From positions 8,437,047-8,501,046 of the forward strand of contig OZ024786.1 in assembly GCA_964017065.1 (NCBI GenBank): a stretch of 64,000 nucleotides of DNA, given 5' to 3'. The notes under the pieces are model-generated. The model searched no databases, was not told where the DNA came from, and saw nothing but the letters and a program-made list of their open reading frames with translations. Below are positions 4,024 to 55,500 of this stretch, in pieces. Made by a program: the position numbers and the translations under genes. Position 1 is the stretch's first letter. Each line of letters begins with the position of its first letter. This DNA comes from Haliclona indistincta. Its lineage: Eukaryota > Porifera > Demospongiae > Haplosclerida > Chalinidae.

Positions 4024-7000
4024 TGAATTCTAGATACAAAAATTGGAGTCCAGTAGTCCAGTCCAGTATTCCAGTCCAGTAGTCCAGTCCAGCGAATAGT
4101 GACGGCCCCTGGAATATGCTTCAGTGTATGTGCTGAGTCCATCCAAAGGATCTTTCAGATCACGAAAAGGTAAATGTATCATTAATTTTTGCTGACAGTA
4201 CTGCTCAAATTGTGGGCTATTTGGGTCATTAGCACAGTATGGTCTAACTACAACTACTACCTTCCTATCCCTGTGAGTAGGCTCATCACCAAGGTCATGT
4301 GGCATGGTGTAATGTTGTGCGAAGTCGTACAGACTAACATGTTCATATGTAGCAGATGCAGGTCTAGCCTTGTAGTGATCTGAGATATTTAGTGTAGTAG
4401 CAGGATTTTCATCATCTAGTTCATCCTGTACCGCTCTACTACCATCAAGACTAAGCACAACAAACTCAAGGGAACACATGATCAGTGTCTACATTAGCCC
4501 TCCATGATGACAGCTGCATTTTATTGTAGCTGTTAACTAATGGATCGTTTCTAGCTGTATTTAACTCCAACTCACCCTCAGTGATATCCAGTGTTGTCTT
4601 TTCTTGAAGTGGCTTGGGATACCCAAATCTACAAGCTTGCTTACCATTTTTTGTCCTCAAGCAGTATGCTGGTGAGCACCTGGTGTGTCTCTGGCACGTG
4701 GCTATCAGCTCAGCAAGATCCTGCTCATAATCTGTTACTTGTGAAAATGCCTTATTACACACATGTGGGTTTGTCTGTGGTGGGCACGAAGGGTCTACAC
4801 TACCGGATTGCATGGCATGGTTACTGGTGGTCACTACTGAGTCTATGTACTGTATAATGTTGTTTGTGGTGACGGTGTCTGCATTGCCTGACGCAAATTC
4901 TTGTTCAATGTGTGGTGCATTTGGTAGCCATATGTACATGTGGACTGCCACGATGCTGCCATTCAAACCTTAGCCAGTAATCTGTTGCTCCAAGAACATC
5001 AGTGTAAAAATACTTGAGGTATATCTGAACACGTTGATAAAAGAACCAGTCTGCAATAGCTGGATTCTCCGTCAGTGCTTGTTGTCGTCTCCTAGGATTG
5101 GTAGGGTCATCAGGACACATCAACTCGGCAAGCTCTGGCCATTGTAGATCAGCAGCACTGTGGGTAAAGAAGACAGTGGGTAGACCTAGAGCATCAACCA
5201 TGGATATGAGACGACTACGCTGTCGGAACCAGTATGCAGATGTTCCTCTGAGTGTGTTACCGAACTGTATTACCTGTTTAGAAAACCTCTCCCCTTGTTG
5301 GTCCACCATCTCCTTGAGATCCTGAACAGACAACTGTGCATCGTATGGATGCTGTTTAATGTAGATCCTACCTACCTGTAAAGCACGCCATCTCATCTCG
5401 GTGTTGAGTGCAAAATATCGGAATTGTGGGTGTTGTGCGAACCTACCATCCCGATACATGAGAAGGTGTTTGAAGTAATAGCCTATTGTAACATGTTGCG
5501 TGGTGCACTGAAGTCAGCAGCACCTGTGGGGAAGAGTGTGGGGAAAGCTCGTGTCATGTAACCCTCAGTTCGAAACTCATTTATGGGCATGTCACCTACC
5601 TGTGGCCAGGACACTGGCTGTGTGTCTTCTTGAATTCTAGAAACACTTTCTCTAACTATCTCTTGCTGTGTTCCTTGCCTAGGCATCATGGGAACAAATG
5701 TACCTGGAAGATGTGATGAGTAGAGTTCCGAGGTCTCCTCACTCACTGCAGGCTCCTCTTCACTGTCTAGTGTAATGCTGGATGGTGTAATATCATCATC
5801 TACTGGTAGCTGAGCTAGTATTGCCTCATCTATTAGTATGTCCCTGTAGTATGTGTTGTGGTGTTTTAACCACAGCAATTGTGTAAGTATTCTAGACCTA
5901 CGTACTCTAAAATCTTTATGTGATCCAGCAGCACCTTGCCTACGTACAAGGAGCACATCTAGCTGTGATGGACTACGTGGAAGTGTGTTAGTAAATGTAG
6001 TTATATCTTGTGGTAAGTTTATGATGTGTCCACTATATCCAAACTGATTGTGTTGTAGGTGGTAGAGTGACATGATGGGCATCACAGAAGAGATCAAGAT
6101 CTCTTCCACCTGTGTGAGACCCTGCAGCTCCTGAGGTACCACTCCAGGATCCATCCCGTTGTCAATGTATGCTTTTTAGTGCTGACTGTGTGTAGAATGG
6201 TTTAAAAGGCTGGCCTATGAAATTATCAGTGATTACCTCAGACCTTGAGGCTCTTGTGTGTTCTCTAACATATTGTAACCTAAGACTTCGTTGCTCCTCA
6301 CCCTCTACAGCTCTGTCCTGTTGTGCGTGTAGTCTCATGTTTTCCAGTCTACTCTCTTTATGTTCAACACTCTCTACAGCTCTCGTTTGCTGTGCATGTA
6401 ATCTCATGTTTTCTAACCTAGTGTCCCAGTGTTCAACACTCTCTACGGACCTACTCTCACACTCGTATACTCTCTTTTTCTGTAGCTTGGTTGTGCGCTT
6501 CTCTGTAGCACTTGTCACACGCTTTGTGTGCCGCTTCCCTCCACTATTACACACGTCTCTCTCTCCGGCAGACTTACCTGGCGTTTGCTCTGCTGCCTTT
6601 TGTCTCCGGTATTCTCTCTGGTATTCCCTTTGTCGCTCCAGTTGTCTCTCTCGTTGATCGGGTGACTCTGCAGCTCGTTGTCGTTTTCTAGAAGTACTCT
6701 TGTCTTGTACAAGTTGATCAAGGTGTTGTCCAGACGTTTGCAAAGATTGTTGCTGTGCTGTCTTATATAGTGGCTTTAGACATAACTTTAAAATTGAAAT
6801 TGACAAGCGCGTGCGCCACATGCCTATGACATCATGCGTATGCGGGCGTTTCTCTCGCGGGAACATAGGGAGGACAAACGCACCACGCGGCCAGATACAT
6901 ACAAACATTCCCCGCGACGTGGGACGCACATCACCATCAATGTGGGGCTTGCTCAGGCTCGCCCCAATAAAATATAGAACACAAAAGCACACACAAACAC

Positions 7001-9516: not shown

Positions 9517-10545
9517 TTATCCGGACCCCCTCCTTTTGACTTGAGCGTAGCGGCCCTCTGTTTCTGTAAGAGCTCTAGAGGCACATTCCACAGGTTTCCA
9601 GGCAGAATCTGATGTTTGGCTCTGCTGCAACACGGCTCCTAGCCCAAATGATGATCTATCTGCAGACACTTTGGTCTCGACCTGAGGACTATAGAGAGCA
9701 AGCACTGTGGGTTTAGAGAGCTCCTCTTTTAGTTCTTGAAATGCTCTATCTTGATCTGGACCCCAACTCCATGAGTTCTTAGTGCTTAGTAGATCACCTA
9801 GTGGCTTAGTCAGCTCTGATAGTCGATGAGAAAACTTTCCTAGGTGATTAACCATTCCCAGGAAGCGTCTGCGTCTTAGAGCAGGAACTCCATCAGGAGA
9901 TGGCATCAAAGCAATTGCTCTTGTTTTCTCTGGATCAGGAGACACTCCGTCTTGGTTGAGCACGTGACCAAGTAACTTTAACTCCGTCTGCTGAAACAAA
10001 CACTTTTCCATGTTGAGGGTAGTGCCTGCCTCTGCCATTTTGTTCAGCACAGCTCTTAGTCTGAGATCATGTTCCTCCTTATCTGCTGCAAAAATGAGAA
10101 CATCGTCAATCAAGCAAACAACTCCATCCAATCCCTCAAACAATTTACCCATACGTTTCTGGAACAACTCAGGGGCACTAGACAAACCAAATGGCAACTT
10201 ATTGAAGTGGTAATGCCCAAATGGTGTGAGAAATGTAGTAAGTGGTCTGGACTCAGGACTCAAAGAGATTTGCCAGAAGCCACTGTTAGCATCTAGCTTA
10301 GAGAAGATTTTAGCACCCGAGAGTTGTGAAAGAATTGACTCCACCATCGGCAAAGGATGAGGCTGTCTCTTGACGCTCTCGTTGAGTGGTTTCAGATCCA
10401 TACAGATACGAATTCCTCCTGACTTCTTCAGTACTGCAACCATGCTGTCACACCATTCGGTGGATTCTTCTACATTAAAGATGACCCCGAGGGTTTCCAT
10501 CGTTCAATTCTTGTTTACTTTGTCCTGGAGGGGTCTAAGCCCTGA
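9517..10545 (-). pseudogene. Gypsy (Ty3) pol fragment: reverse transcriptase and start of RNase H
   Basis: A frame of 327 codons reads as Gypsy reverse transcriptase. GGIRICMDLKPLN and FSKLDANSGFWQISL lie in the fingers/palm (first catalytic Asp). The active-site box is VCLIDDVLIF, where most Gypsy elements have YxDD. After the connection domain, an RNase H-like start reads FGLGAVLQQ. The enzyme copies element RNA into DNA in the cytoplasm. The frame ends near 9517 where the tandem-repeat element begins, so most of RNase H and all of the integrase are missing. Upstream it continues into the foldback at about 10540; gag and protease of the same element resume at 13914. It is a dead copy cut into pieces by later insertions. 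Confidence 0.88.
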
Positions 10546-12062
10546 CTAAGATTTGTATGCATTTAATTTAGGAGAGGATAACTCAACTGTTTTAGGGTAA
10601 TTTGACCCCAAGGAATAAGATGTGATATGTGCCTTTTTGTCTATCCGCTGCAAAATACCCGAAATTGACCACGCCTTTTTTATCGGCATTGTCACTAACA
10701 ATAATTGGTCTATCTTCTTAACCATTCTAGTAACATACATTCTGGCAACTGTTCTAAGGTAATATGACCCTAATGAATGTATTGGGATGTGTGCCAAAAA
10801 CCAATATTCACTGCACAAAAAAGCAAAAATGGCCACACCTTTCTCTGAAATGCATTAGCGTCTCTATTCTAATGAATTTGATTCTGATGGTTTAAAACAG
10901 TACAAGTACAGGGTATTACTAACAAAAAGGCACAATTTATTAACTTGAGGAGTCACTTAAACATAAAAATTAGGCAGCATTTAGTATTACAAGAATGATG
11001 TTTACAAAAATTTAGTTATTCAGTGATAGGGATTTTGCAAGATTCACCTCCTTTACACTTGCAGTATTTGAAACACTTGATTCCAGCTACCCTGCAGCGA
11101 CAACCATTCTTGTGGTAGCATTTGCCACATGTACAAGTATCAGGAAGGTCTTCAGGCTTGGAGATAACAATAATTATCAGGAACAATTAAAATTAATTTT
11201 CTTTCTTCACAGAAGCGAAAACATACGACTCAGCGTTCATTTCTAAACTGGCATCTTTAAGTGGGCTTGTATCCATTGCTGTTGTTGATAATAAATTATA
11301 TGCCCTTTGAATATGCGTTCATGCATTGGCTGATGTGCAGAGAATTTTCAAAGTCCGTTTTGAGGGAATTGCTATTAAAAGCAGCAAGATGCAAGTCATC
11401 AAAGTAATGTTTCCAAGTCTGTTGTTGGCTTGAGACACCTTACTAGAAATTTTCTGCCATCTGAATCATACTCTCTGTCAACTCCAAGTTATTAAAGTTC
11501 TGTAACATAGGCAGTGTTATTGTTGTGGATAGCTCTCATTGCTGTGTGCTTCAAGTCGTAGAAATATTGCTAGTTGAATCGCATCCAGTCAGACCATGGA
11601 GCTAGTGCAGGGAGACACCTTGTAAGCTTGTCCCCAGTGCTGTGCAGATGTCATGTGACACATGAGGAAGCAGATGATAGGGTGATGTACCAACAGGATA
11701 TTCTAATCAGGTTATCTTCCTGCACTCAATGCCGGCTCTGACTGGATGTGATACAACTAGCAATATTTCTACGACTTGAAGCACAGCAATGAGAGCTATC
11801 TACAACAATAACACTGCCTATGTTACAGAACTTTAATAACTTGGAGTTGACAGAGAGTATGATACAGATGGCAGAAAATTTATAGTAAGGTGTCTCAAGC
11901 CAACAACAGACTTGGAAACATTTAATAACCTGTGTCTTGCTGCTTTTAATAGCAATTTCCTCAAAATGGACTTTGAGACAATTCTCTGCACATCAGCCAA
12001 TGCATGAACGCATATTCAAAGAGCATATAATCAACAACAGCAATGAATACAAGCCCACTTAA

Positions 12063-12979
12063 GGTAGTACAGACGCGAAAGTGTAAATTTTGAAGAATTT
12101 TTTTGTTTTTGGTGTATCTCAGAAAGTAAACTACCTGTGCACAGCAGATTTGCAAATATGGTTGTTTAGAGTATATAGCATGTCATTAAAGAGCAAGAAG
12201 TAGTGCCGATTAATAATACAAAAAAACAGCAACAGTTTAAAGACACTGACTGATTTTGACTATTTTCTGCCTAGCTATTGCCAGAAGTACTGTATGCCAG
12301 TACATTGAACAGAAAACTTAGATAAGCTAAGTTGCTAACTTTTCACCAGAAGCCGCCTCTCTAAGATAAACCACAACCCTTTGACTTCTGTTAAGAGAAG
12401 ATTGGCCGACATTTTTTCAACGGATCAGCTAGCTTCTCACACTAAAGACCTTGTGGCGGCTTCTGGTGAAAATAATGCAAAGTCGACGAAGAATCCATGC
12501 TGCAACTCTTGGGCACTGTCGAAACTCCATCGCTGAGTTACAGCAAGCTAAAATTTGGTGGTTTCTTGTAGGTCGGTTCTTTCTCTAAGCAGTCAGTTCC
12601 ACGCGCACATTTTACTCGAGACTCTATTTAATGGCACAAGCAAACACTCAGCTAATACTGTTCCAAATATGGAAGCGTGGTGTGGCCTGTGGTTTGGCTT
12701 ATAGTTGCACTTGTAACAGCAACTAGTTTGCCTAGCAACCGTTTAGCCAGCAAGAATGCAATTAGCGCTTGTGAATCTAATTATTATTGCGTGAATATAA
12801 TTATTTTGATTGTGAATATCATTATAAGTGACGTCCTTAGCAACGATTTGTGCAGTATATCTAAAAAACCAACCAGTATTCTCCACTGTAACTCTGGAAT
12901 TATACTTACCAGTCTTAAATTAACACATGGTATAAAATTCATAAAAATTAAAGAGATGAATTTTCGTGTCCGTGCTACC
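12063..12979. mobile_element. TTAA-flanked non-autonomous element (917 bp)
   Basis: TTAA stands immediately on both sides (12059-12062, 12980-12983). The ends are inverted repeats: GGTAGTACAGACGCGAAA at the left, complement of GGTAGCACGGACACGAAA at the right. Removing it restores the pairing of the foldback arm. A TTAA duplication is typical of piggyBac and Kolobok; no transposase is present. A smaller MITE is nested inside. Confidence 0.8.
12340..12472. mobile_element. 133 bp MITE with perfect ends
   Basis: It starts TTTTCACCAGAAGCCGCC and ends with the exact complement. The interior is short and non-coding. It lies within the TTAA-flanked element, three insertions deep in the Gypsy copy. 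The target duplication is unclear. Confidence 0.7.
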
Positions 12980-13721
12980 TTAAAGATGCCAGTTTAGAAA
13001 TGAACGCTGAGTCGTATGGTTTCACTTTGTGAAGAAAAGATTAATTCTAATTGTTCCTGATAATTATTGTTATCTCCAAGACCTTCCTGATACTTGTACA
13101 TGTGGCAAATGCTGCCACAAGGATGGATGTCGCTGCAGGGTAGCTGGAATCAATGCAAGTGTTGCAAATACTGCAAGTATAAAGGAGGTGAATCTTGCAA
13201 AATCCCTATCACTGAATAACTAAATTTTTGTGAACATCATTATTGTAATACTAAATGCTGCCTAATTTTTATGTTGTGACTCCTCAAATTAATAAATTGT
13301 GCCTTTTTGTTAGTAATACCCTGTACTTGTACTGTTTCAAACCATCAGAATCAAATTCATTAGAATAGAGACGCTAGTGCATTTCAGAGAAAGGTGTGGC
13401 CATTTTGCTTTTTTGTGCAGTGAATAATGGTTTTGGCACAAATCCCAATACATTCCTTAGGGTCATATTACCTTAGAACAGTTGCCAGAATGTATGTTAC
13501 TAGAATGGTTAAGAAGATAGACCAATTATTGTTAGTGACAATGCCGATAAATAGGGCGTGGTCAATTTCGGGTATTTCGCAGCGGATAGACAAAAAGGCA
13601 CATATCACATCTTATTCCTTGGGGTCAAATTACCCTAAAACAGTTGAGTTATCCTCTCCTAAATTAAGTGCATACAAATCTTAGTCAGGGCCTCTACTAT
13701 AAGGAAGTCTTCTTAAAGTTA

Positions 13722-16729: not shown

Positions 16730-17226
16730 TGGGGTAAAATATATGCACGCTCTTTAGCGCCCCCGTCGAGGCTACAACGGCGAGTAGAACGCGCGCACCG
16801 TACAATAAGTTCGTATTGAATGGATAATAGCACGCGGTGGGCGGGTCTCACGAAATACGTGATGTACAGGAAGCGCGATAGCTTCGATCTCGCCCGCGCA
16901 TATACTTTAAAGTAGTGGTAATTCAACTTACTAGTGACAATGGCACAGTCCCCAAACGGATCACATCAAATTGAACTTTAGATAACTGACTAGAAAAGCT
17001 GGACCGATCCTTTCTTCAATTAGAATCGACCTTTGTTCAAGCTACAATAAAATTAATACATGCTATTACCGTTAGTGGGTAATAAAGATATCTTACTATA
17101 TCTGAGTCGGAATAAAAAAATGCCTGTTTGCGTATCTTGCCTCGAAATCATCGAGAATACAAGTGGAGGTTGAGGCTTGAGAATCATGTGAGACTTTGTA
17201 AAAATCATGACGCTTTCAATTTATGT
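16730..17226. other. Non-coding interval
   Basis: No supported gene. The two overlapping small frames near 16600-16926 come from the palindrome and its GC-rich flank. It separates the MITE from the 5.25 kb transposon. Confidence 0.4.
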
Positions 17227-17829
17227 ATAATGCACCTATCAATGTCACGCCCCACTCCCCCCAATAGGGGGAAGGTGGGGATTTGATCGTTGGTGTTGTC
17301 AAATGCCCCCCACCTGGGGGAAAATTTGAATCAAATCCCCCACCTGGGGGACAATTTGAATCAACCCCCCAGGGTGATCGACGCGTTTTGAACTCAGCTC
17401 TGAAATGAACAGCGGGCGTTCACGCGCGAAGATAACCCCGGCATCCATTCCGCGATCCGCCACGCGCGCAGTAGGAAAACAGTTGCCACGTAAAATCTGT
17501 ATAATACTCCGCGGTATTAGTTACCGTGTGCCAGAAAAGATCGCTCTGTAGGGTGGCAAGACGCTAAAGTCATGTGGATCCGTCGCTCGACAAAACAGCC
17601 ACAATTTCTCGCAATCCGTTCTGCCACGATACTCGATCGTATGAATATTGAGCTGCATATTAACTATGACTTCTCTTTGTGTAGATTTTGGGAATGATGA
17701 CTGAGCAAAGTTCCAACAAGAAATTGCAGACTAAGAATCAACTAACTGGCTATAGTTTTTATTCTGAAGAATTTTATGTCTATAAAATCAAAATACTACA
17801 ATCATGTAGCTATGTAAAAGAAAACATTA

Positions 17830-20800
17830 TTAATACTGCTTTTTAGCTTGTCTAGTTAGGCGTGCTTTCTGAGCTCCACGCTTTCTGTTTTCTTTAACTG
17901 TGTCAAGATGGTCAATCCAAAATTTAACCTCTTCTGCAGGAAGTAAAACAGATCTTGCTAATTCATCGATGTCTGCAGTCTCATATACATTGTCTTTTGA
18001 TTGTAGGAATTCCTTGATGACTAGAGATGGTGGCTTTAGCATATGGTTGGTTGCTCCTCTGATGTTCTGTAAGTTTTCATTGGGTTTTAGGAAGTGACCA
18101 CCGCAGATTCCCTTGCAGTCAGGACAATTAGAGTTACCCCATGGACGTGACGGATCAGGTACCGGCAAGGGGAAGAAGTCAATGGTTGGGCCACCTGAAT
18201 ACCAATGAGGTAATGCGGGAGGTTTTCCTTTTTGGCACACCGGATGGGGGCAGTCGGCTTCATAGCAACAACGAAGAAAGAATATATACTGAGATGGAAG
18301 TCCATGAACCATATGACGATTTCTGATACCCCATACCTTGTCAAATTCACTGTGCATTTCAGGATAGCTTACTTGAAGATCCTGCTTTTGTTTTTTATTA
18401 CCTTTGAGGTACACCAACAGCTTTTCTCTCTTGTGCATGTACTGATCAGAATTAGCACCTTTGTAGAGATGGATTTCTGCACTTCCACAAGATGCACGAT
18501 CGCACCTTTTGATATACAAATCAATGGCTGTTGATAAATTTTTATGAAGTATGTCTTGGTCAATCTTTCCAGTCTCAGTACTAAAGGGTAAACCATGAAG
18601 AGTAGAAGGAATAAAGAGATTACAATGAGCACGAGGCAAACAGCCGTTTTGAAGTTCAACCCTATTTAGGTAACTTGAACCGCTGCTTCGAGTTGTGACT
18701 AATGTTACTACATTGGCTTGTAGCAGGTGTCTTTGCGACCACCAATATTGCACTTCTTCGTGAGAAGGACCTTCATCATTCGCTCCATCAACCCTGATAC
18801 ATACAATAGGTTTTTGATGGCCTTGAGGAGTGGAACAAAGTGATGATAATTCTGGCTGTTTCAACACCATGTCAAAATCTGCAGCATGTTGAGCAGGGGA
18901 TTTAAGAAATAATAGTTGCGCCTTAACGACACCTGCACATCGTTCATCTGTGGTCTTTGTTGCTGTAAAATTGTAGCTAGTAACTTGCAATACCGAAGGG
19001 TATCGGTTAACATAATCAGTATAGGTAGTTAAAATTTCTTTTCCTCTCACAGTAGGGTTTGGAAATTGATGGTGAGTTGTAAGAGTATCAAGTCTGAAGC
19101 CAGATGCATCGTCACGGTTAACAAATAAAATGTCAGATCCATCTGTAAGTTGAAGAATGTTAAGATACCGATACAATGTGTTGCTCCAATGTGTATCTGG
19201 GTTATATTTGAGCATAAATCCCTTTCTAGCTCGACGACTCACAACCTGTGCAACTCCTTTGTAACGCTTGGCTGAAAGACGACGTTTGTTCCTGGCAACG
19301 CAGAGCTGTACGACAGTTCCATATGAGAAGTGACGGTGATAAACGCTTTGAAGGTGCTCTTGAATTCTTGTGTAAGTACACTTCTTTTCGACTTTTATAT
19401 TGCCATCAAATGTATATAAGCATACCCGTGCGCCTCCACGCGTCTGCCCCTATGTTGCAGTCTTCAACGTACTTCTCAATTGTTGTTCCAATATCAGGGT
19501 AAGTTGCGGTAATACTAGTTAGGCTTTTAGACTTCCTTCTTTCTAAGAAATGCTGGTCAGCTATCATCTTTGCTCTCCTCCTTCTAGTCTGCCTCTTGAT
19601 GGCTGCTACCTTTTTGTCAACAGCTGCTTGGAACTCTTTACTATGAAGTTGAATATCATCGACAGGGTCATCTGGTTCTGAATCGGTTACGATTTCACCA
19701 TTTAGGACACGAGTATCTCTGTCTCTGCTGTAAGTATAAAGGAATTCATCTGCTTTGTATGCTTCTTGTGACAGTCTAACCATATCCATTTCATTCTCAG
19801 AAAAAACTGATGAAAGTTTCAGACATAATTCATCAAAGTAGGCGTTGATATCATTCTCTTCAGAAAATTCACACTGAACTTGCTCACAAAACTCAAACCA
19901 GTTATAGTTGCTATCTCTCAAAAGATTGACCAAACAATCAAACTTGCTGTTGTCAAAACTCGCACTAGAAGTGTTGGGCGATTGTAGTTCTATCTCTTCT
20001 TCATCACTTGAATCAGATGTCAAAGCAGCTGCCTGTATTTCAGCTAGTTCTTGACATGACCTCTTAATGTGTTCAGCTTCTTTGATACATCTCTCTACTT
20101 CTTTTGCCCTCTGTTCCATCTTTTCAAATCCAAATTTCTTTCTGGCTTGTGATTGAGTCATCCCTGTGGCCTTGTAAACAGCGTAGCGAAGGCATTCACG
20201 CTCACGACTGGATTGTCCTAATAGAAGTAGACTGTTCATATCTTGCTTGGTAAAGAGTGAAGGAGCAGACGTGAACTTCATATTCAAGATTTCTCTAAGT
20301 TTGAGGTAGTCAAATCCATTTACAAATGCAGTTACAAGCAACTGTGATGTGCCATCAGATGGATTTCCCACTCTAATACATGCCAAAGGAATTTTTAAGA
20401 CCTGATTTTTAGCATGTGTTGCTTGGTATTTGACATGAGGAAAGCATTCTTTGAAAAGAGCCGATAGTGAACAGATGCCCTCTATTATAACCATCTGTGC
20501 TGCCTGACTTAATAGAGCACACTCTTGACAGTTCTTGTGGGTTACTTCACAATAAGATTTACAAACACGGGAAAATTCAGAGAGAGTCATATCTAGTTTG
20601 TTATAATACACACCGTCTTCAGCTACTATAAAAGATTTCGGCATTTTCTTAAACTCATTATAAATAGGTAACAGCACATCAACTGGCCTCCCTGCAGAGA
20701 GTTCACAGGGAGGCCGATTCAAAAATGCGGAGGGTCTGTGGAGTCAAAGCAGGGAGGTGTTGACGAGTATGATGAGGTTTCAATATCAGACGCAGTAGCA

Positions 20801-21723
20801 CCACTAAAGAAGCGAGATGTGGAACAAGCAGCAGGACAAGGAGTTGTGGCCTGAGCAGAGCTAGCTGTATAGGCAGTGCTGTTTTCATCAGGAGAGCTAC
20901 TATTACAAATCGAAGCAGAAGAAGCCACATCAGGTATGATGGTTGAAGCAGGATGAGGAGTTGTGACTTGAGCAGAACTAGTTGTACTGCAGCAGGAAGT
21001 GTTGGTTTCATCAGGAGAATGACTATTAGAAATTGGAATACAAAAGAAAGGAGGAGAATTTATGTCAGGTGTAGTAGAACGACTTAGTGTGCTGGTTTCA
21101 CTTGTTTCAGAAGGATAAGCATCACTATCAGAAGACCAAGGTATTGGAGATTGTTGCTTTTTCTTGCTGTACCACTGAGCCTTTTTTCCTTCTTCTCCAA
21201 AGTAAGGAATTCTCTTTCCAATTCACGTCTCCTGCATTTAAGCTTCTCAATCTCACCAGCAATTGAATCACAAACATCGAATTTCCTTTCATTCACTTTT
21301 TGCTGCAGAAGCTTCTCCTTGATGTCTATGCGAGAATTCAATGTGTTTAATTCTTCTTTGATTTCATTGCTTCTTGTGGCACGCAGAAATTTGTCCAGCT
21401 TTGGACGCTTTGGTCGACTAGACTCTGTGGTTTGTGAGTTACCAAAATGTTTTGACCTGGATTTTTTTTTCCTGTACTGATAACCACTGTCATTAACACA
21501 AGATCGAGACATATCCAAAAGCCTGCCCCTTTGAGTAAGCAAAGTAGGGTTCTCTAAGCATAATGCTATCGCAGCTTGATTGATGCAATCCTGATATGAA
21601 CCAGCTTTAACATTTTGATGATAGATTGGAGCTAGCTTTCTTATTTCCGACTCATTTGCAGCCAGTGAAGTTGAATCCTACATAAAAGGAATGAAATAAA
21701 GCACATAATTGCATGTACACAGT

Positions 21724-21784
<61 letters not shown>

Positions 21785-22238
21785 CTCATTTGCACTGCTG
21801 ATAGATTTATCAAACACCAAATGACCTGGTGCCACGCCCTGACATGCCCCATCAGCTGAAGACTGTACACAGATACTATCACCGCCAGTTGTGTTCTGCA
21901 TTAAGAATTAATTCAATAACAGCATCATATATCACCAGACATAATGATAATACCTGATGATGCTTGTTTGAAGATGAAGCCGCGGCATCACGATCAACTA
22001 CAATCACTTGAATAACAGATCTATCAGGAATTGCCTGGTCAAGGGCGATATCAACAAATAGACCCTGCCAAGTTTCATCTTTTATTTGTAACAAAAGTGT
22101 TTCCTCATTGTCTATAAGATCCGAAAAAGCAGCACGCACTTCTGCCTCAAGATCTCCATGAGAGCCACCGTAGATTAGTTTGATCGGTCTGCGCCTTTCT
22201 TTGTGACACACCAAAACAGTTACGGTTTGTTGAGCCAT
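17830..22238 (-). pseudogene. Putative transposase of the unplaced family, three exons, three frameshifts
   Basis: Exon 1 is 22238-21954, exon 2 is 21895-21785 and exon 3 is 21677-17830. Both introns are GT-AG and phase 0. The product would be about 1,400 residues. It starts with a PB1/ubiquitin-like segment (about residues 1-90) and continues with a Ser-rich linker and a coiled-coil, Lys/Glu-rich stretch. A low-complexity Ser/Thr region follows, then a helical region, and the conserved C-terminal domain. That domain contains NRDDASGFRLDT, CIRVDGANDEGPSHEEVQYW and SYLNRVELQNG, which I read as a candidate Asp-Asp-Glu triad, plus a Cys/His cluster CPDCKGICGGHF. Exon 3 needs three small repairs: an A run near 21186, a T run near 20725 and an extra TATA near 19424. 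These could be true lesions or assembly errors. I recognise the conserved domain from other invertebrates but know no name for it. Confidence 0.72.
21729..21780. repeat. (AC)n microsatellite in intron 2
   Basis: About 26 uninterrupted AC units. On the coding strand this is (GT)n starting directly after the exon 2 donor, so the donor site GTATGTGT merges into the repeat. Length variation here would not touch coding sequence. Confidence 0.95.
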
Positions 22239-22487
22239 GATCTACAATCTAGATAATGAGGAAAGGGTCACACGCAGCCGTGTGGCGCCGTCAAACACAG
22301 TCATGCTCGGTCATGCTTTACCTTGACAAAGATATTCCAATTCACGCGCGTGCTTGTAAATTTACGTATTCTTGGAAGTCCGGTCAAATGCCCCACCTTT
22401 AGGACTACTCCCGCGTAATAATCCCCACGTTGCCCCAGTACTGCCCCTATTGGGGGGAGTGGGGCATGACATTGATAGGTGCATAAT

Positions 22488-23429
22488 AGCACTATTATAC
22501 TCAGGAAAAGTGAAAAAACCTGTCTGCTATCGGCTCCTTTTACTAGGAGGTGAAGACGATTCAGCCATATCGCACTCGAAATGAAGCCTGAGCTCAGCAC
22601 AGGTGTCCGGGCCAATGTCGACGTCCCTCACAGTGTCATAACAGCGCGTACATGTACGTCTTCTAGCTAGCTTGGTACGGTTCAAGTATAAATGCTGTGA
22701 TACGAGCAGCTAGCCAGCTAAAGAGCATTTATCGCGTGGCAAAGTGCTTACGCATGCGCGTGTGTTTAGCTGGATTCTTAGTACACAATCTTTTCAGCGT
22801 CTAGAAGACAAGCTTCTTTTCTTTCTTTGGTAGGAAAACGAATGATGAGCCAATTGGAAAAGAAGAAAGGAAGGACGGTGAATTCCTCTGGAGAGATTTC
22901 TGCAAATCGCAATCATGAACAAGAAGCAGCAACCAGAGAACTGCCTCGAATCACGTCACTGCAACCTCGCCGACACCATCTCGAGCATGCATTGGATAGC
23001 TCAGGCTACGACACTTCACTGTTTACTCATAACAGATGCCATGCCACTATGACTATAACGGCAGAGCTAGGTACTAGCGAATACTTGAGAGTGACTGAGT
23101 TCTGTACCAAAGCCTGTAGTGACTCTGACTGTGCTTCCCATGCACACCCGAGAAGCGACGGCGTGTTGCCGTTATGCAACTGCCAGTTGAGCCTGCTTCT
23201 CTGTGCAGGGGAAAATTCCTGTGTCTATCAGCATTATTTTTTAAAACAATGTTGCTAACTCATATGTTCCAATCAGGGTATAGTGTGTGTGAAGGGCTGG
23301 GTGTGGATTAAAGGTAGAGATTGTTTGTAATGGATGTAAGAAGGCTTACCTTCGACTGTTCCCTTATGATAGAATCATCCCGTCGTACGACGCTTGCTCT
23401 ACAAGTAGCATTCTATGCTTCAGGATGCA
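22488..23429. other. Interval between two transposons
   Basis: A 143-codon plus frame at 22827-23258 is open, with a Lys-rich start and a Cys-rich end, but I recognise no domain and see no splice or family support, so I do not call it a gene. The rest is non-coding. A run CTTTTCTTTCTTT precedes the frame. Confidence 0.35.
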
Positions 23430-23912
23430 CACATGCTCGGGACGCTGTAAAATGCGGAATAACGGAATTGCGGAATAGCGGAATAACTATTGACCACGCC
23501 CAGTTACCTCGCCCAACGATTGACACATGTTCCGTCTTCTAGCAACGCTGTGATTCTTCCTGTTTTGCCGTCCAAGAAGCTTGCTACCGTGTTCCATCGT
23601 TTTGTTTGATCAACTCTACGCACTGCTAGTTAGCCTTGCTGCAGACGATCGGCCGCGCTGGATCTATAAATGCAAGGGGCGTGTAGGTAGGCGCGGCTAA
23701 CTAACTAACAACAACAAGAGGACCTCCCTGGCCCTGTGCGCTGCTAGAGTCTGCTCTCGAGTTGACCGTAATGCCGTTGTGCAGAAGCGTAACTAGCTGT
23801 AGAGGAGACGGTGAGATCGCGACCAACGAACGACTGAAAGAACGAACACTTCACGAACAACTGAAAAAAACAACAATAGTAATGTGTTCACAAGTTTAGT
23901 CAGTACGTGTAA

Positions 23913-26900
23913 CTACAACTGAAGTCCGAACTGTTGAAAGATAAGCTGCTTGCTTACAACTGACAGCCTGCTTTGCACATCATATGGAACGACAACATTC
24001 CTTGGGTCTAACACTCCTCTCCAGTTCAGTTCAATACAGAAAAGCTGACAATGATAGTAAGCATTACCGAACTTGCTCATTGGTAGTCCCGATTGAGGAT
24101 GAATGAATTTTCGATTCTCATAGTGCTTTACCACCACATCATCAAATTGAGTAAACTTGGAGTGGCAACCATTGCAGACTCGGATATTGCCAGTTTTGAA
24201 GCACAACACGAATTCTTGAAGCTGGCCAGGGATAGGAGAGGCTGTAACCAAGAGTAAATAATAGAAGAGAGAGTATACAACTCCAATATACCCGTCAGGG
24301 ACACTCTCGGGAAAGTAACGTGACCAGCACGCGAGTAGATGACGTTTATCGGTATCAATTATTCATCGTGTAACGTCATCACTTAGTACGCGCGCCCGCG
24401 ATCGCGATTGCAACAGCACTTCAGTTGAAAGTCAAAGCTACCATTTTCATTGACAACATGTCGGATGCATGCTGTAGAGCCTGCAGGTGGATGCCAGTAC
24501 CACAGTTTGGAGACCACCAGAAGATGGGCTACCTTGGCTTTGGTCACGGTGCCGCCCACACGAAAGTCACGCCACCCGCTATATTCTTTTTCTCCAGCAG
24601 TGTTTAAGGCAGAAATAAAACTATCTGGTGAAAGCGTGGTTGCTCGCTTTGCTTGCGGAGCGGAGTCGCTTGCTGCTTCTGCTGTTTATAGCTTTAAGGT
24701 GTAGGCGGAGCGACAACAAGCTACGTAGGCAAGATTTTTACTGCCACATATACGTCAGATTACGTCAATTTGCTCGCGTGCTGGTCACGTTACTTTCCCG
24801 AGAGTGTCCCTGACGGGTATATTGGAGTTGGATACTCTCTCTTCTATTATTTACTCTTGCTGTAACTGGTGAAGTAGAAGGGGCAAGTGGGGGAGGAGTG
24901 GGAGGAGTGATGTCATGCACTGGGCATAGTGTGATACAGATTGAGATGAGGAGGCTTGCTGAAACTGCGGCAAATAAGTAGGAGAAAACGAGAATGATGG
25001 TCCATCGTAGGTTAGAGGTAATGGGATACTGGTGTTCACAGGAGATATGGAAAACGGCGATGGATTAGAGCCAGCTGTATTGCCAGATGTGCAAGCACTG
25101 GAATTGTCTCTTGTCTTTCCAGGTAAAACGCCTTTGTTATTACTTGTAGGTGTAAGTGGCACTCGGTTCTCGTCTGTTGGTATTGATTTAGTTCGAGATC
25201 TTTTCCTTGGTGCTCTTCCACCTTTGCGACCTGCTCCTGCCGGCATTCCTTCTAAAGCCAGTGGTGTCATGTTTATTGGTTGCTTTCCTCTTGACTTGTT
25301 ATACCAGTCTAAGAACTGTAGTAAGTCGCCATTTGATTCCGCTGCAGCTACTACATGTGAACATACTGCTAAGGATTTGTGTTGCAGACAACTCTCATCT
25401 CATTTATATTGGCTGTTTTTCGTGACAGTAACCAGGTGTGGGCTAACTTTAGACATAGACTTTACCATTCGGTCTTTTTTGCCGCACCCAGGAGCAAAGG
25501 TGACAGCATTAGAGTCAGATTTTAACATAGCTGCCTTAGTCCAAATACCTTCAACCGTTTCCTTGGGTAGTCGAGTAGCTACAGTAGCATCTTCACACGA
25601 TACAGACAAAGAATTTATTTGTCCCAGCTGAAACTGCCCAACAGTAATGTCATGAGACTGAAGAGAATGCCCCGGTTGACTTGAAAAGCTTTCTTGATCC
25701 ATTTGATCCATTTGACGAACTGAACATGTTTTAAATTTCTTCAGGTGCTGTATGCGCTGTTCTTCAATCATTCTAAACCACTTATCCTCTGCAACTGCTA
25801 AAAAGCTGTATTCACTTTGCAGCCGAAACCTTCCACAGTTAGTAACAGCCTTCTCTACCTCGCGCTGTTGCTGTTCTACCAACTTCTTCATCTTGTCATT
25901 AAACATTCCCCATTGCTGTTTTTTTTTGTAGTTGATAGTTTCCTTAAGGAGTGAATTGATAGACTCGTTATCATTGGTGTAGTATGGCTTAGGAGGTGAA
26001 CCCAAGCCAGTTTCCTCCCTTAAAGATCGCAAAGCGTATTTTCTGAACTCTTTTGCCTTGTGCTGTGAGAACCAAGAAAAAAATTGTGGCTGATGACTCT
26101 TCCGGTTAGAAAAACTTGTTGCTCTCGTTGATTCCAGTTATCCTCCAAGGATGACAACAGCTTATCATACTCTTCTGTACTGCAACAGTCTACAAGACCT
26201 TCATGGTAAGTGCCATCTGGGTATGTATAACCAAAGATATCATGGACATATTCCTTAATAGAATTCGAGGAGAATTCTTTTTCACGAAGATGCTTTTCGA
26301 TGTTTTTTTGTAAATGGCGAAAACAACGTAGTTGTCGAGCATGAGGGAAACTTAGAGATAAAGCCTCTACCAAGCACTGTTCACCGTCTGTACCTGTAGC
26401 TTGAACTGAACTGACAGCAGGCTTCAAACCAACAAGTGATGAGCAAAACTAATGGTAATTCCTGAACTGCTTTCGGTAATGAACAAGCATTGGACCCAAG
26501 AGAATTGGTGTTTGTGAAGTCTTGGCGTCTTGAAGAAGATGTCGGTAAACAGAAGGTGTCACACTAAAATCTCCAAGACAGAATGTTGGATCCACTCCAA
26601 AGATACTAAAGCAATAAGGATCACAGCAGAATCGCTCCATGTCAAGCAGCTGCTGTTCAAAGCATAGAATAGCCATAGGCTCAGGTGCACATGTAACATC
26701 TTGAACAAATCGTCTCTCTCTTTCCATACTCTTACACTGTTCCATAATTAGATACAGCATGTCACGCGTTCCTGACAAGGAATACAAAGGAACCTCTGGA
26801 CCAAGACTTTTCATTAGCTCTTGTTGAGATAATTTACGCTTGATGTTGTATGCTTGTGTCAAGCTTCTTGGAAGCTGTCCAGCACTAGAGGCATGAACCA

Positions 26901-26945
26901 TTCCTCCTTTAGACTCAAACACAACATCCGTGTCAATCGTTGGGC
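23913..26945 (-). pseudogene. MULE transposase, decayed copy
   Basis: Blocks at 26922-26449, 26427-26020, 26032-25400, 25399-24867 and 24241-23913 follow the gene at 1-3241 in order. They include GVDPTFCLGDFSVTPS (first Asp), ATGTDGEQCLVEA with CFRHLQKN (second Asp), and TNDNESINSLLK (Glu). Downstream lie a SWIM-like finger (SLAVCSHVVAAAE) and a Pro-rich tail ending in a CNGC finger. Lesions are a frameshift near 26445, another near 26095, a TGA exactly at the first SWIM cysteine (about 25400), a frame change in the Pro-rich tail, and the 611 bp insertion at 24249. No product is expected from this copy. Confidence 0.85.
24249..24859. mobile_element. 611 bp MITE with long inverted ends, 7 bp duplication
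   Basis: The ends CAAGAGTAAATAATAGAAGA and complement pair for about 87 bp with one mismatch. CTGTAAC flanks both sides (24242-24248, 24860-24866). It sits in the Pro-rich tail of the broken MULE transposase, so it is younger than that element. There is no coding sequence. A 7 bp duplication is seen in P-like elements, but the ends do not identify a family. Confidence 0.85.
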
Positions 26946-27005
26946 GTGGTCAATAGTTATTCCGCAATTCCGTTATTCCGCATTTTACAGCGTCCCCACA
27001 TGCTC

Positions 27006-50463: not shown

Positions 50464-51926
50464 TCAATGACGAGCTCTTTTGTATGGTAGAGAGAGAGAA
50501 GGAAGATTGTCATGTAAGAAAAGTAGTGTTTCAACATTTTCTGGGTCCAGTGCTGCCCTCTTGGCACTGACAATAATGCCAGCTATACTAAAAAGTCTCT
50601 CTGATGGAACAGACGTAGCTACGATACTGAGATATTTTTGCGCCATCTTGGCTAAACGAGGGTATGATCGGTGATGTGTTCTCCACCACTCCAAAGGTTT
50701 TTCCTTCAGTTCTGCAACAGGCTCGGCCTTGTAACGAGTCAATTCTCCGACTACAAGATCAGTGAGAGATACTGAAAATGAGGAGTCACAACTAGCATTG
50801 AGAGTACTAAAAGTATCTCCAAGCAGCTTTTCCAAAGCACACTTTTTGGTGGATTGACTGGATTCTGAAACAGCATTTGAACTACTAGTAGACTGGTTCT
50901 CTGATGTGCTTGCTGTAGTAATTGCAGTAGTAGCTGGCTGTAGTTGACTGACAACTATCTCATCCACTAAACTATTTGCAGTTGCCTCTTGCTGATCTTC
51001 TGTCAGGTGAGCCAAGCTTTTTAGGCGTGGGTCTAATAAAGTAGCCTTGTTCATCAGCATGCAAACATCCGGATCTTTGTAACGTGTATTGAAGTCGGAA
51101 GCAATTGCTTTTTTGACGTTACGGATTGCTGTTGAGCTATCAGCAGGCGTGATCACTAACTTAAGCCTTATTTGAGCAAGAAGTGGACCTAGAGTAGACA
51201 AACTTGGGTATTGATCAGCGCTAAGGTAGGCAGTGGCGTCCTTAAAAGGTTCGAGAATCTCACATAAATCTTGCAATAGCCTCCATTCCTCTGGAGAGTG
51301 TTCTAAGTGTAGTAGGCTTCTCTGGTTTTGCAAAACAGCACACACAGCCAGCTGCTGTTCACACAATCTCTCTATCATATCATGAACAGAATTCCACCTG
51401 TGAGATACTCCCTGCAGGTAAGAAAAAATAATTCTGTTGTGTATTCTGTTGTGTATATGTATAATACCTGTATTAATTTGTGCTTTGGTAGCCCAAGCAT
51501 TTCTTGTTTGACTTCAAGTTCTTCAGCATCAAGACGTGACTTGTTAAAATGTGCGACAACTTTCTTTGCACGACCAATTGCTCGTTCTACTGCTGGTACC
51601 TCAAAAGCTTTTTGAACAGAAAGGTTTAATGTGTGGCCAGCACAAGGCAAACGAACTTTGTCTAAGTCTTCCTCTATTGCTTTTACGACATTGCTACCAT
51701 TATCTGTAGTAAACGCAGACACATCTTCATTAAGATCGATGCACCAATCCCTGAGTGAATCACGAATCGCTGTAGATACAAGTACATGGTTATGTGATCC
51801 AGGCATGAAGTGGCATTGAAGAGAATTGTGTTTCATCTCGAAATCTTTGGGAGTAATGTAATGTGCCGTCAAGGAAAAGTAGGCATCACCTGCTCGTGAG
51901 GTCCACATATCAGTGGTAAGTGCCAC

Positions 51927-52078: not shown

Positions 52079-52596
52079 AGCTACCCAGACTGGCTACCTT
52101 TCGTCACGTTCTCTCCTGCGTTCACTCCCTCTACCTGGAACTATTGTAAGTCGTAAATCGCACACACACTAGTTCTAGTGGACGATCAGACGCTCGCCCA
52201 TCGATATTCGCCCTTCGACTACCAATCGCTGTACTCTGTCGGTACTTGCTTGCTTCATCAAGCCACAGTAACCTGCCTTTCGTTCTCTATCTAGTCACTC
52301 GTTGTCCACGCTGGTCCTCGTCTCTTCGCACGAGGAGCCACGCCCACATCGTCAAGCCACAGCAACTTTCTGCTTGCTTTCGTCTCGCATCTACAACAAA
52401 CCTGTCTTTCTACATCGCTCGTTACCACGATTGTTGCAACACTGTTTCCAGGCACACTCTATTCGTTCACTGACCACTTCAGTACTTGTTTACTAGTATC
52501 CTTGTCGCACTTCGATCGTGCTAATCACGCACAGCTGTCCCTGGCAGCTAACGCCACAATCGGTCGCCATTAACACTTACACCTTTCCTCTCAATC

Positions 52597-55500
52597 ATGC
52601 CAAAGAAATCTAAAAAGCAACCAGCTGAGGAAGACATAGCCCTCACTAGCGCGAGAAGGCGCAGAGGTGTCACGCGTTCGTCAGTCACGCGTCTCATAGC
52701 CAAATTCGAAGAGCTAGAGAACAATGCAGCACTTGACAGTGCACCCAAGCTAGAGGTTGCACGGCAAATCAAAACACGTCTAAGCATGCTCGATGCTGAC
52801 TTTAGAACTCAACACCTAGACGTTGTTGATCTTGTAGAGAGCGAAGATGTGCTAGCTAAGGAACAAGCCGTACTAGATGAACATGACGATCGTGTTACTG
52901 AACTTGCTTCATCGATCCAATGTTTGCTAAATGGTCTAACCTCATCCGCGTTATCTCCCAAATGCTCTCTTGGTCCCGCTAGTGGTAGAAGTGTAGCCTC
53001 CAGACGTCTGCGACAAATCCAAGATCGACTATCTGCTGTTGGTGATAATCTGTCTACTCCATCGCAAGATTATGAGATTCGTCAGATCGAGGAAGAGATA
53101 GCTGACATCAAGCTAGAACTAAGAAGTGTCTCCTCTGATTTAGCCACGCTAAACTTGCCTGAGGATGATGATCTCTTTGAAATCGAGAAACAGATACGCT
53201 CTGTTATCTACGCCCACTCACTGTCAGCTAAGAAGACTCTTGCTGGAATGCGCTCTGCTACACCTACACTCGCTGCAAGCTCATCAGGTGTCAAGCTTCC
53301 CAAGATAGACGTTCCTCGTTTCAACGGCAACGCTCTCAGCTGGCGTTCGTTCTGGGAGCAATTCAACGTCACCATCCATAGTCGTACCACATTGACAGAC
53401 ACAGAGAAGATGACCTATCTCCAGAGTTCAATCAAGGATAGTCCAGCTAAGTCCATCATAGACGGTCTATCACAATCTGGTGACAACTACATTGAGGCGA
53501 TTGAAACTCTTAAGGCACGCTACGACCGACCTCGTCTAGTCCATCAAGCGCACGTCCGGTCGATTGTAGAAGCACCTGGTCTCAAGGATGGCAATGGTCG
53601 TGAGTTGCGTCGTCTCCATGATACTGTTCAGCAGCACTTGAGAGCACTGAAGGCAATGGACTGCGAACCATCTGGTCAGTTTGTCACATCTCTTCTCGAA
53701 CTAAAACTAGACGAAAACACTATGTTTGAGTGGCAAAGGTCGAGTCAAGAGCGCTCTGAAGTGCCACACTACTCTGAACTCTTGAAGTTCATCGACGTGC
53801 GCGCACAAGCATCTGAGGCTAAAGCGCCCATTGTACCAGTAAAACACTTTGTCAAACAAGAGCACAAGAAGCCTGCGTCACCCGTGAAACCAGTTCATGT
53901 AGCAACTCCTTCTGAACTGTGCATCGCTTGCAAGACTACGAAACATCCACTTCATCATTGCTCTACATTTCGCGCACTCCCTCACAACGACATGGTGTCA
54001 CTACTCAAGGCTAACAACCTTTGTTTGAACTGCTTCAAGTCTGGTCACTTTGTGAGACAGTGCCCCTCTCTGCATCGATGTCGACGATGTCAAGGTCCAC
54101 ATCACACCCTCTTACACATTGAATCGAATGGTGGCAATACAGTTCCTGAACCACCACCTCCTCCTCCTGTCAACAATGCTCCTTCTCACGTTGCCACGGA
54201 CCTGAAAACCGATTCGTTATTGATGACTTGTCGTGTTATTGTGAAGTCACCAAGTGGACTCACAACTGAAGCTAGAGGACTTCTTGATTCTGGTTCTTCT
54301 GTGTCCTTCATCACTGAACGACTTGCTCAGCGTCTCCATCTATCTCGTTCACGTCAGTCAGCACAGATCTCTGGCGTTGCTGGTTTATCTCATCACTCAC
54401 CCTCTCAGTCCGTCGCTTCTCTCTCTGTTTCATCCGCTTATTCTCATAGCAAGGAGATCCCTGTCACTGCAATCGTAGTACCAAGAATCACTTGTGATCT
54501 TCCTACTCACAGAGTCTCCATTCAACCAAACTGGAAACACTTGTCTGGACTGCAATTGTCAGATCCCACGTTTGGTAAGCCAGATCGTATTGACTTGTTG
54601 CTTGGTGTCGACGTCTTCTGTGAAGCAATGAAACACGGCCGGCGGAGAGGTACTCAAGGTTCGCCAACGGCATTCGAGACAACCTTTGGATGGGTTCTAG
54701 CTGGAAGTCATGTGCCACAGGTCATACCATCTCATCATGCCATTTCACTGCATACGTCTGCCTTGTCTGGTGATGATCTCTTGAGGAAGTTCTGGGAGAT
54801 TGAAGAGCGAATCAACAACTCCACCATCATGTCTGCTGAGGAGTCATGCGTTGTGAAGCACTTCCAAGAGAACCACACGCGCACTGCTGATGGAAAGTTT
54901 GTTGTTCCGTTGCCCATCAAGCAAGACGCTGGTGTCCTGGGTGAGAGCAGATCCACAGCAGTCAGGAGATTCCTCTCACTTGAACGTTCACTACACTTCA
55001 AGGGACAGTTTGGTCAGTTCGCTGAAGTCATTCAGGAATACTTCGACATGGGCCATGCTGAACGAGTTCCATCCTCTTCCATGCACCTGTCAGCAGAGAA
55101 AACATTCTACTTACCCATGCATGCTGTTCGCAAAAGCTCCAGCACAACAACCAAGATCCGTGCAGTGTTCGACGCATCAGCTAAGACTTCCTCTGGTATT
55201 TCTCTCAATGACTTACTGCTAGTCGGTCCCACCGTTCACTCTACACTGATAGATGTTCTGTTGAGATTTCGTACTCACCGAGTAGCATTGACGACTGACG
55301 TCAGTTGCATGTATCGAGCTGTGTTGCTTCCTGAATCAGATAGAGACCTCCATCGTTTCGTCTGGCGAAAGAGTACTAGTGAGCCATTGCAAGACTATCG
55401 GATGACACGAGTAACATTCGGAGTCTCTTCCTCTTCATTTACAGCTAACATGTGTGTAAAGCAGAACGCTATCGACTTAGCTTCTGAATTTCCTCTTGCG

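Follow-up and report, generated by a model that had tools for sequence, protein, structure and literature searches.

The DNA transposons of eukaryotes are divided in Repbase into some two dozen superfamilies, 24 by one account (PMC12730594). A 3-bp target site duplication (TSD) of the form TWA is described as the signature of PIF/Harbinger (PMC4482050), and 3-bp TSDs are also attributed to Zator and ISAzo13 (PMC10045372), whereas the duplication of Ginger2 is given as 4 or 5 bp (PMC10045372). Catalytic domains are characterized in similar terms: pogo elements have the spacing DD29-56D (PMC7386202), a C/DxxH motif between the second D and the E defines hAT, P, MuDR, Kolobok and Dada (PMC10045372), and C(2)C and H(3-4)H in the same interval are reported for CMC/Transib (PMC12730594). 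Here we describe an element in the genome of the sponge Haliclona indistincta, lying within a stretch of 64,000 nucleotides that we refer to as the window. We put the probability at roughly 80% that it is a cut-and-paste DNA transposon of autonomous type, present here as a frame-shifted copy, from a lineage that we assign to no superfamily.

Ends, duplications and copies

The element (TGCACC...GGTGCA) spans positions 17231..22483 of the window, 5253 bp in all, with its gene on the minus strand. These limits come from the alignment of the terminal inverted repeats (TIRs) and the flanks, with the boundary taken from TSD statistics over 27 copies; each end lies one base further out than in the original prediction, which had placed the element at 17232..22482. 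The 40-bp TIRs, at 17231..17270 (plus strand) and 22444..22483 (minus strand), are identical at 39 of 40 bases, in agreement with the predicted ends of about 40 bp with one mismatch, and the longer inverted arms 17226-17270 and 22444-22488 are 96% complementary over 45 nt. Reading of the flanks with the 3-bp rule gives a TAA duplication at 17228..17230 and 22484..22486. Two subterminal direct repeats of 30 nt each (17307..17366, plus strand; repeat family D5), 90% alike, are possibly binding sites for the transposase.

Of the 27 paired copies, 26 have exactly the same three bases on each side, in most cases TAA or TTA; 200 shuffled pairings gave 11.1 such copies on average and never more than 18 (n=27). 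Since non-consensus triplets flank both ends in one copy (TAG) and in another (AAA), we conclude that the TSD is 3 bp long and is not the product of a fixed TA context.

Second copies with matching ends, the lack of which had been set beforehand as a refutation, are present in the genome. Three near-identical full-length copies of this young element lie at three sites, with long aligned stretches that are 99.1-100% identical and are interrupted by indels. A whole-genome protein search returned 21 matches, which include, besides these three copies, four long ones at 55-56% identity. Three of these four diverged gene copies, 54-56% identical in protein, have both ends in the DNA fetched, with cognate ends and TSDs of TAA, TTA and TAA, and the fourth has one readable end. 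Most of the derivatives that share the ends are about 300 bp long, and one TIR element of 1154 bp retains only a remnant of the C-terminus of the gene. The most similar protein pair (L084/L085, 94.1% over 406 residues) also has the most similar ends, as compared by eye. Gene and ends thus move as one unit, and the most likely role of the gene is that of transposase, not of captured cargo. Between the window copy and three relatives, pN is 0.315-0.332 against a near-saturated pS of 0.725-0.776, and the protein is thus under constraint. Together, the ends, the TSDs, the copies and the coupling of gene to ends bear out the reading as a DNA transposon.

The gene and its candidate catalytic domain

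The original prediction of a large gene belonging to the element holds in the form of several minus-strand open reading frames (ORFs), which occupy most of the interior; that the gene is spliced is supported as probable. All coding features below are on the minus strand. The first coding exon (MAQQTVTVLVC..., 21957..22238) encodes an N-terminal segment that recurs in two diverged relatives, at 42% and 25% identity. This segment had been likened to PB1 or ubiquitin; Pfam gave no such match, and it is ubiquitin-like by look only. A CA/TG microsatellite in a probable intron (21729..21782) varies in length among the three copies. The ORF at 21084..21677 carries a module resembling NCD2 (NAB conserved region 2; PF04905, E=6e-9, above the cut-off) and a coiled-coil-like stretch. 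The NCD2 match covers residues 29-74, or 21456..21593 as computed from the ORF start, and in each of four copies tested the region reaches or exceeds the cut-off of Pfam. Next come a Ser/Thr-rich ORF (20719..21222), which in the window copy is a continuation in another frame, while two other copies have a single 319-codon ORF across the region, and a middle ORF of 445 codons (19406..20743). Two diverged relatives match most of this middle ORF at 32-33% identity, and a third matches it in pieces at 28-42%. The C-terminal ORF (17830..19449, 539 codons) holds the candidate DDE triad and a Cys/His cluster; in the window copy, the seven codons at its start are off the frame of the gene. The window copy is broken, since its frame changes from one ORF to the next over a region that stays open for 969 codons in another copy. 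From the ORFs, we estimate the full protein at about 1,300-1,400 residues.

Which residues might be catalytic? The three motifs picked out originally are still the best candidates. They place the triad at D114 (NRDDASGFRLDT; 19108..19110, a computed coordinate), D221 (RVDGANDEGPS; 18787..18789) and E265 (NRVELQNG; 18655..18657). All three residues, together with the adjacent D113, are kept in 67/67 sequences of the alignment (the query plus 66 homologs), and the motifs are present in all five copies inspected in this genome. The spacing is D(106)D(43)E, with 43 residues between the second D and the E in 64/67 sequences. The choice of triad rests on order, spacing and the look of the motifs, since D191, H188, H241 and further residues are as invariant. 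Averaged Chou-Fasman propensities, which are weak as evidence, place strands before D114 and D221 and show no clear helix at E265. Judged by sequence, D114, D221 and E265 may be the catalytic residues, in a C-terminal domain that would have an RNase H fold. The Cys/His cluster predicted beyond the triad is there, with C395, C400 and C405 in 67/67 sequences and H402 in 66/67; C442, C445, C449 and H452 are nearly invariant. Many relatives have a PHD finger beyond this domain.

The domain had been regarded as uncharacterised, and the Pfam and NCBIfam results listed contain no transposase match. None is among the 25 of 46 Pfam families listed for 34 aligned members, 17 of which match PHD, and none was found for the five window ORFs at E<=1. 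The window C-terminal ORF matched no Pfam family at E<=10, and three proteins matched no NCBIfam family. A single-sequence search of the PDB gave no match; the 67-sequence profile gave 131 chains, and the 60 listed all align at the PHD end of the profile. A Tc1-type search of viral contigs gave 39 pattern matches and no relative.

We propose that one spliced gene would encode the whole protein, comprising in order the N-terminal segment, the NCD2-like module with its coiled coil, the long middle region, and the D(106)D(43)E domain with its Cys/His cluster; we infer roles for the N-terminal and PHD parts. The protein would bind TGCRCYTATCAWTG-like ends and then cut there, the element would be inserted at a TWA target through joining points staggered by 3 bp, and repair would leave the 3-bp duplication. 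The short derivatives would be mobilised in trans by the same protein.

Placement of the lineage

We tentatively suggest, at close to even odds, that the element represents a superfamily of cut-and-paste transposons not described before, found in eukaryotes and apparently in animals. Its marks would be a 3-bp TWA TSD, TGCRCYTATCAWTG ends and a D106D43E transposase that carries an NCD2-like module at the N-terminus and, in many relatives, a PHD finger at the C-terminus. A family already named in Repbase or Dfam, and merely without a Pfam model, is a serious but somewhat less probable alternative. There are 648 protein relatives at E<=1e-3, so curators may have met the family. Among the 120 relatives listed, none is named as a transposon; just two carry descriptive names, both taken from a chromatin factor. 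No matching description was found among the titles and abstract openings listed from the open-access literature, a survey that cannot show absence.

Slightly less probable again is a strongly diverged branch of Zator/ISAzo13, or of the IS630-Tc1-mariner group in its wider sense. The 3-bp TSD is common to both Zator/ISAzo13 and this element (for Zator, in length only), the spacing of 43 is close to the 42 of one ISAzo13-type protein, and on inspection both have DG at the second D and a Ser/Gly loop followed by N-x-[VI]-E at the last acid. However, the spacing between the first two D residues is 106 here against 92, the protein is much larger, with NCD2-like, Cys/His and (in relatives) PHD parts, and PF07592 is absent among the Pfam results listed. 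A genome search for PF07592 gave no match, its controls being equally silent. Profile-profile comparison by hhalign with ISAzo13 (63 sequences) and Harbinger (29) found no link, and is without power because the control that paired ISAzo13 with Harbinger was equally negative (probability 1.5%). IS630-Tc1-mariner and pogo elements share the short spacing between the second D and the E, and TAA is used by most Fot elements, but TA duplications are general there, in contrast to 3 bp here, and DDE_1 and DDE_3 are absent among the Pfam results listed.

Far less probable is that a PIF/Harbinger transposase encoded at another locus mobilises the element, with the large gene as captured cargo. The TWA duplication is that of PIF/Harbinger, and the genome holds at least 150 matches to DDE_Tnp_4 (PF13359). 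Nevertheless, gene and ends diverge together: the four gene lineages (that of the window and three others) have related but distinct ends, both ends having been seen in at least one copy of each. A comparison of coordinates by eye puts none of 150 scored DDE_Tnp_4 matches (from 327 candidates) inside any of the 27 pairs of ends. In the 30 Harbinger-type loci fetched, the 16 outermost bases of the ends have no match with three or fewer mismatches; 16 matches with four mismatches occur in 12 of these loci. The element's ends are also unlike the 14 Harbinger-type family ends read from 14 of these loci, which start TATAGACG, ATAGACG, ATAGACC, ATAGTTC, AATAGACC or TATACATGG. As in PIF/Harbinger, no long insertion separates the second D from the E. 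DDE_Tnp_4 itself is absent from the Pfam results listed for the five window ORFs and the aligned members, and the five ORFs scanned have no Myb/SANT match.

The 5-bp duplicating family originally proposed is rejected, and with it the duplication length of Transib (5 bp) or Ginger2: ATAAT does flank this one copy on each side of the element as first drawn, but those boundaries give a 5-bp duplication in only 2/27 copies (shuffled mean 0.93, maximum 4) against 26/27 for 3 bp with ends one base wider, and the argument from the rarity of 5-bp duplications falls with it, the TSD being 3 bp and TWA-like.

Other described systems

The lineage assigned here to no superfamily also differs from those with motifs between the second D and the E. 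C/DxxH, as in hAT, P, MuDR, Kolobok and Dada, occurs in 2/67 aligned sequences, at different places, and residue 238, three ahead of the invariant H241, is T in 56, A in 7, S in 3 and C in 1. The motif of CMC/Transib is not found in the stretch from D221 to E265, which is just 40-43 residues long; it has no Cys in the window copy, and Cys in 29/67 sequences at no invariant position.

The NCD2 region is shared with NAB transcriptional co-repressors, which are not known to be transposases, whereas here it makes up the N-terminal part of a protein encoded by a transposon. A weaker lead is that the NCD2 region of NAB proteins and the transposase module may have a common origin; if true, this would connect a family of transcription co-repressors with a transposon protein. 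Should the element represent a further superfamily, 648 protein records would become probable transposases. The near-identical copies, clean duplications and matching short derivatives make this a system open to direct activity testing. Among the systems described, its TSD and spacing recall Zator/ISAzo13 and PIF/Harbinger.

The element, its copies and its neighbours

The element is best delimited at 17231-22483 of the window (contig C4, positions 8437047-8501046), beginning TGCACCTATCAATGTCACGCC..., and its two ends are identical at 39 of the first 40 bases. The inverted ends noticed in the original prediction were borne out, as 45-nt arms with 96% complementarity. When the left end was used as a query against the host genome (144 Mb, 46 contigs), 40 matches were obtained; 40 of 42 candidates were scored, and all counts are lower bounds. 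Allowing up to five mismatches, the DNA around these matches contains 32 forward ends and as many in reverse orientation. Twenty-seven forward ends have a reverse partner, and five are unpaired.

Of the 27 pairs, 26 are flanked by an exact 3-bp duplication if the element starts at TGC; the exception is a copy with an altered left end. The originally predicted 5-bp ATAAT duplication, with boundaries at 17232 and 22482, has to be abandoned, as this arrangement suits only 2/27 pairs. The duplicated triplet is TAA or TTA in all 26 cases except for one TAG and one AAA. Shuffling left against right flanks (n = 200) gave 3-bp agreement in a mean of 11.1 and a maximum of 18 of the 27 pairs, a high background for which the strong TWA preference accounts in large part. 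TAG and AAA are each present at both sides, and hence the outer letters are also duplicated. Three pairs identified later, those of gene copies L083 (TAA) and L085 (TTA) and of C3:1144951-1150661 (TAA), bring the total to 29/30.

There are three full-length copies: the window copy, C4:2093290-2098837 and C5:8219871-8233440. They are 99.1-100% identical across long aligned stretches, differing in the length of a CA repeat and in a few small changes, and they lie at separate sites with TAA, TAG and TAA duplications, respectively. Near-identity at separate sites indicates that the family moved recently. The C4:2093290 copy carries an additional stretch of ~266 bp with inverted ends TATACATGGTTTCG (about 5045-5315 of locus L031); this short palindromic insert starts in the same way as two Harbinger-type loci, L058 and L059. 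The C5 copy is interrupted by ~8.3 kb of foreign DNA bordered by an 11-bp target repeat, ACACCAACGAT.

The window holds other mobile sequences. A second element with terminal inverted repeats (23439-26997; ends GGGACGCTGTAAAATGCGG...) has a 9-bp direct repeat, CACATGCTC, at either side. Duplications of 9 bp are typical of Mutator-like elements. The 245-codon ORF of this element matched no Pfam family (E ≤ 0.01). An 1858-codon ORF at 52552-58128 encodes a BEL/Pao-type retroelement polyprotein (Peptidase_A17, RVT_1, integrase zinc-binding and DUF5641), and an ORF at 47225-48316 matches DUF3504, QRICH1 and phage-integrase, resembling Crypton-type tyrosine recombinases. Positions 50464-51513 match Dimer_Tnp_hAT, the C-terminal part of a hAT transposase. 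A reverse transcriptase ORF adjoins long inverted repeats in nested blocks at 9517-10503 and 10539-13691, the outer blocks being 95-98% complementary.

Coupling of the gene to its ends

The gene of the window copy, on the minus strand, consists of ORFs of 120, 197, 167, 445 and 539 codons, and its reading frame is broken. The second and third ORFs form a single 319-codon ORF in the two other full-length copies, and the last two form a single 969-codon ORF in one of them. Our reading of the sequence places the ends of putative introns before AACACAACTGG and before GATTCAACTTC.

A genome-wide protein search yielded 21 matches, fragments included. Beyond the near-identical copies, four are long, at 55-56% identity: L083 and L085 (C4), L084 (C8), and C3:1145649, of which the two end regions were examined. 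In L083, L084 and L085, as in the window copy, an N-terminal segment is followed by an NCD2-like part, a middle region and finally the DDE part; the L085 gene has stops and frame changes. Both ends are visible in L083, L085 and the C3 copy; L084 shows a single end, next to TTA, and has N bases on the opposite side. L084 and L085 are 94.1% identical over 406 residues and their ends are almost alike, whereas L083 and the C3 copy each have distinct ends of their own. By-eye comparison revealed short elements with L083-type ends and with C3-type ends. In a 1154-bp element the gene is reduced to C-terminal ORF residues 477-538, lying between the ends. This coupling of gene and ends across copies is our main argument that the large gene is the family's own transposase.

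An alternative explanation is that a PIF/Harbinger transposase encoded elsewhere moves the element. Matches to its domain, DDE_Tnp_4, are numerous in the host genome (150 scored of 327 candidates), but none of the 150 falls inside the 27 paired ends, with coordinates checked by eye. Furthermore, 30 Harbinger-type loci, searched with 1.5 kb on either side, contain nothing that comes within three mismatches of the initial 16 bases of the element end; at four mismatches there are 16 matches, across 12 of the 30 loci. Family ends could be read at 14 of these loci, and they differ from those of the element.

Two regions, C3:96537-96725 and C3:150017-150202, match the Cys/His region of the protein at 38-39% and perhaps represent a more divergent lineage within the family.

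Domains of the encoded protein

The N-terminal part matches NCD2 (NAB conserved region 2, PF04905; Pfam cut-off 25 bits) at 21456-21593 of the window copy (36.4 bits, E = 6e-9), and likewise in L084 (40.2 bits, 4.2e-10), L085 (39.1 bits, 8.8e-10) and, barely above the cut-off, L083 (25.1 bits, 2e-5). PF04905 is among the precomputed domains of 17/32 homologs of the L084 N-terminal ORF, one of them 100% identical to the query and possibly the same gene. The transposon module and the NAB co-repressors may have a common origin. Among the literature matches listed (20 of 66), no entry mentioned NCD2. The preceding segment (MAQQTVTVLVC...) can be aligned in three lineages and has no convincing Pfam match; it may be the PB1/ubiquitin-like segment of the original prediction.

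The 539-residue C-terminal ORF has 648 matches in the public protein set at E ≤ 1e-3. Among the best 120, two have descriptive names, both "Chromatin modification-related YNG2" from Paramuricea clavata, and three are labelled "hypothetical protein". From these 120 we aligned 66 with the query and, separately, 33 with the query. Residues invariant in the 67-sequence alignment include D113, D114, K183, H188, D191, D221, H241, E265, C395, C400 and C405. By order and spacing, D113 or D114, D221 and E265 look most like a catalytic triad. In the window copy 106 residues separate D114 from D221 and 43 separate D221 from E265; the latter gap is 43 in 64/67 sequences and 40-42 in the other three. The Pfam results shown include no transposase match, and a crude secondary-structure average gave no clear helix at E265. 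PHD matches (E ≤ 10) occur in 17/34 aligned members, with none at the end of the window ORF. Comparison of the window copy with three relatives gave a proportion of differences of 0.315-0.332 at amino-acid-changing sites and of 0.725-0.776, near saturation, at silent sites, indicating that the protein was kept under constraint. For L084 and L085, dN/dS is 0.315, with two L085 stops within the compared stretch.

Proposed mechanism and relationship to known superfamilies

The data show that the family has ends of its own, duplicates 3 bp of target, spread recently, keeps gene and ends together, and encodes a protein under constraint with invariant acidic residues. We propose that the protein would bind the element ends, and that the acidic triad with metal ions would perform cutting and joining. 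Joins on the two strands would be staggered by 3 bp and the gaps filled through host repair. As a guess, the PHD fingers of relatives might direct insertion toward marked chromatin.

There is a real chance that Repbase or Dfam already names this family. Formal kinship tests were negative and had no power, since an ISAzo13 versus Harbinger control was likewise negative; hence, we file the element under no superfamily. The short stretch between the second and third acids (D2-E) argues against families with C/DxxH or C(2)C/H(3-4)H motifs, as excerpts of PMC10045372 and PMC12730594, respectively, describe them. C/DxxH occurs within this stretch in 2/67 sequences, and cysteine in 29/67, never at an invariant position. 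TWA duplications are typical of PIF/Harbinger according to an excerpt of PMC4482050, and a part of PMC10045372 gives 3-bp duplications for Zator and ISAzo13 too. An ISAzo13-type protein in locus L088 has a D2-E gap of 42 and a D1-D2 gap of 92, compared with 43 and 106 in the element.
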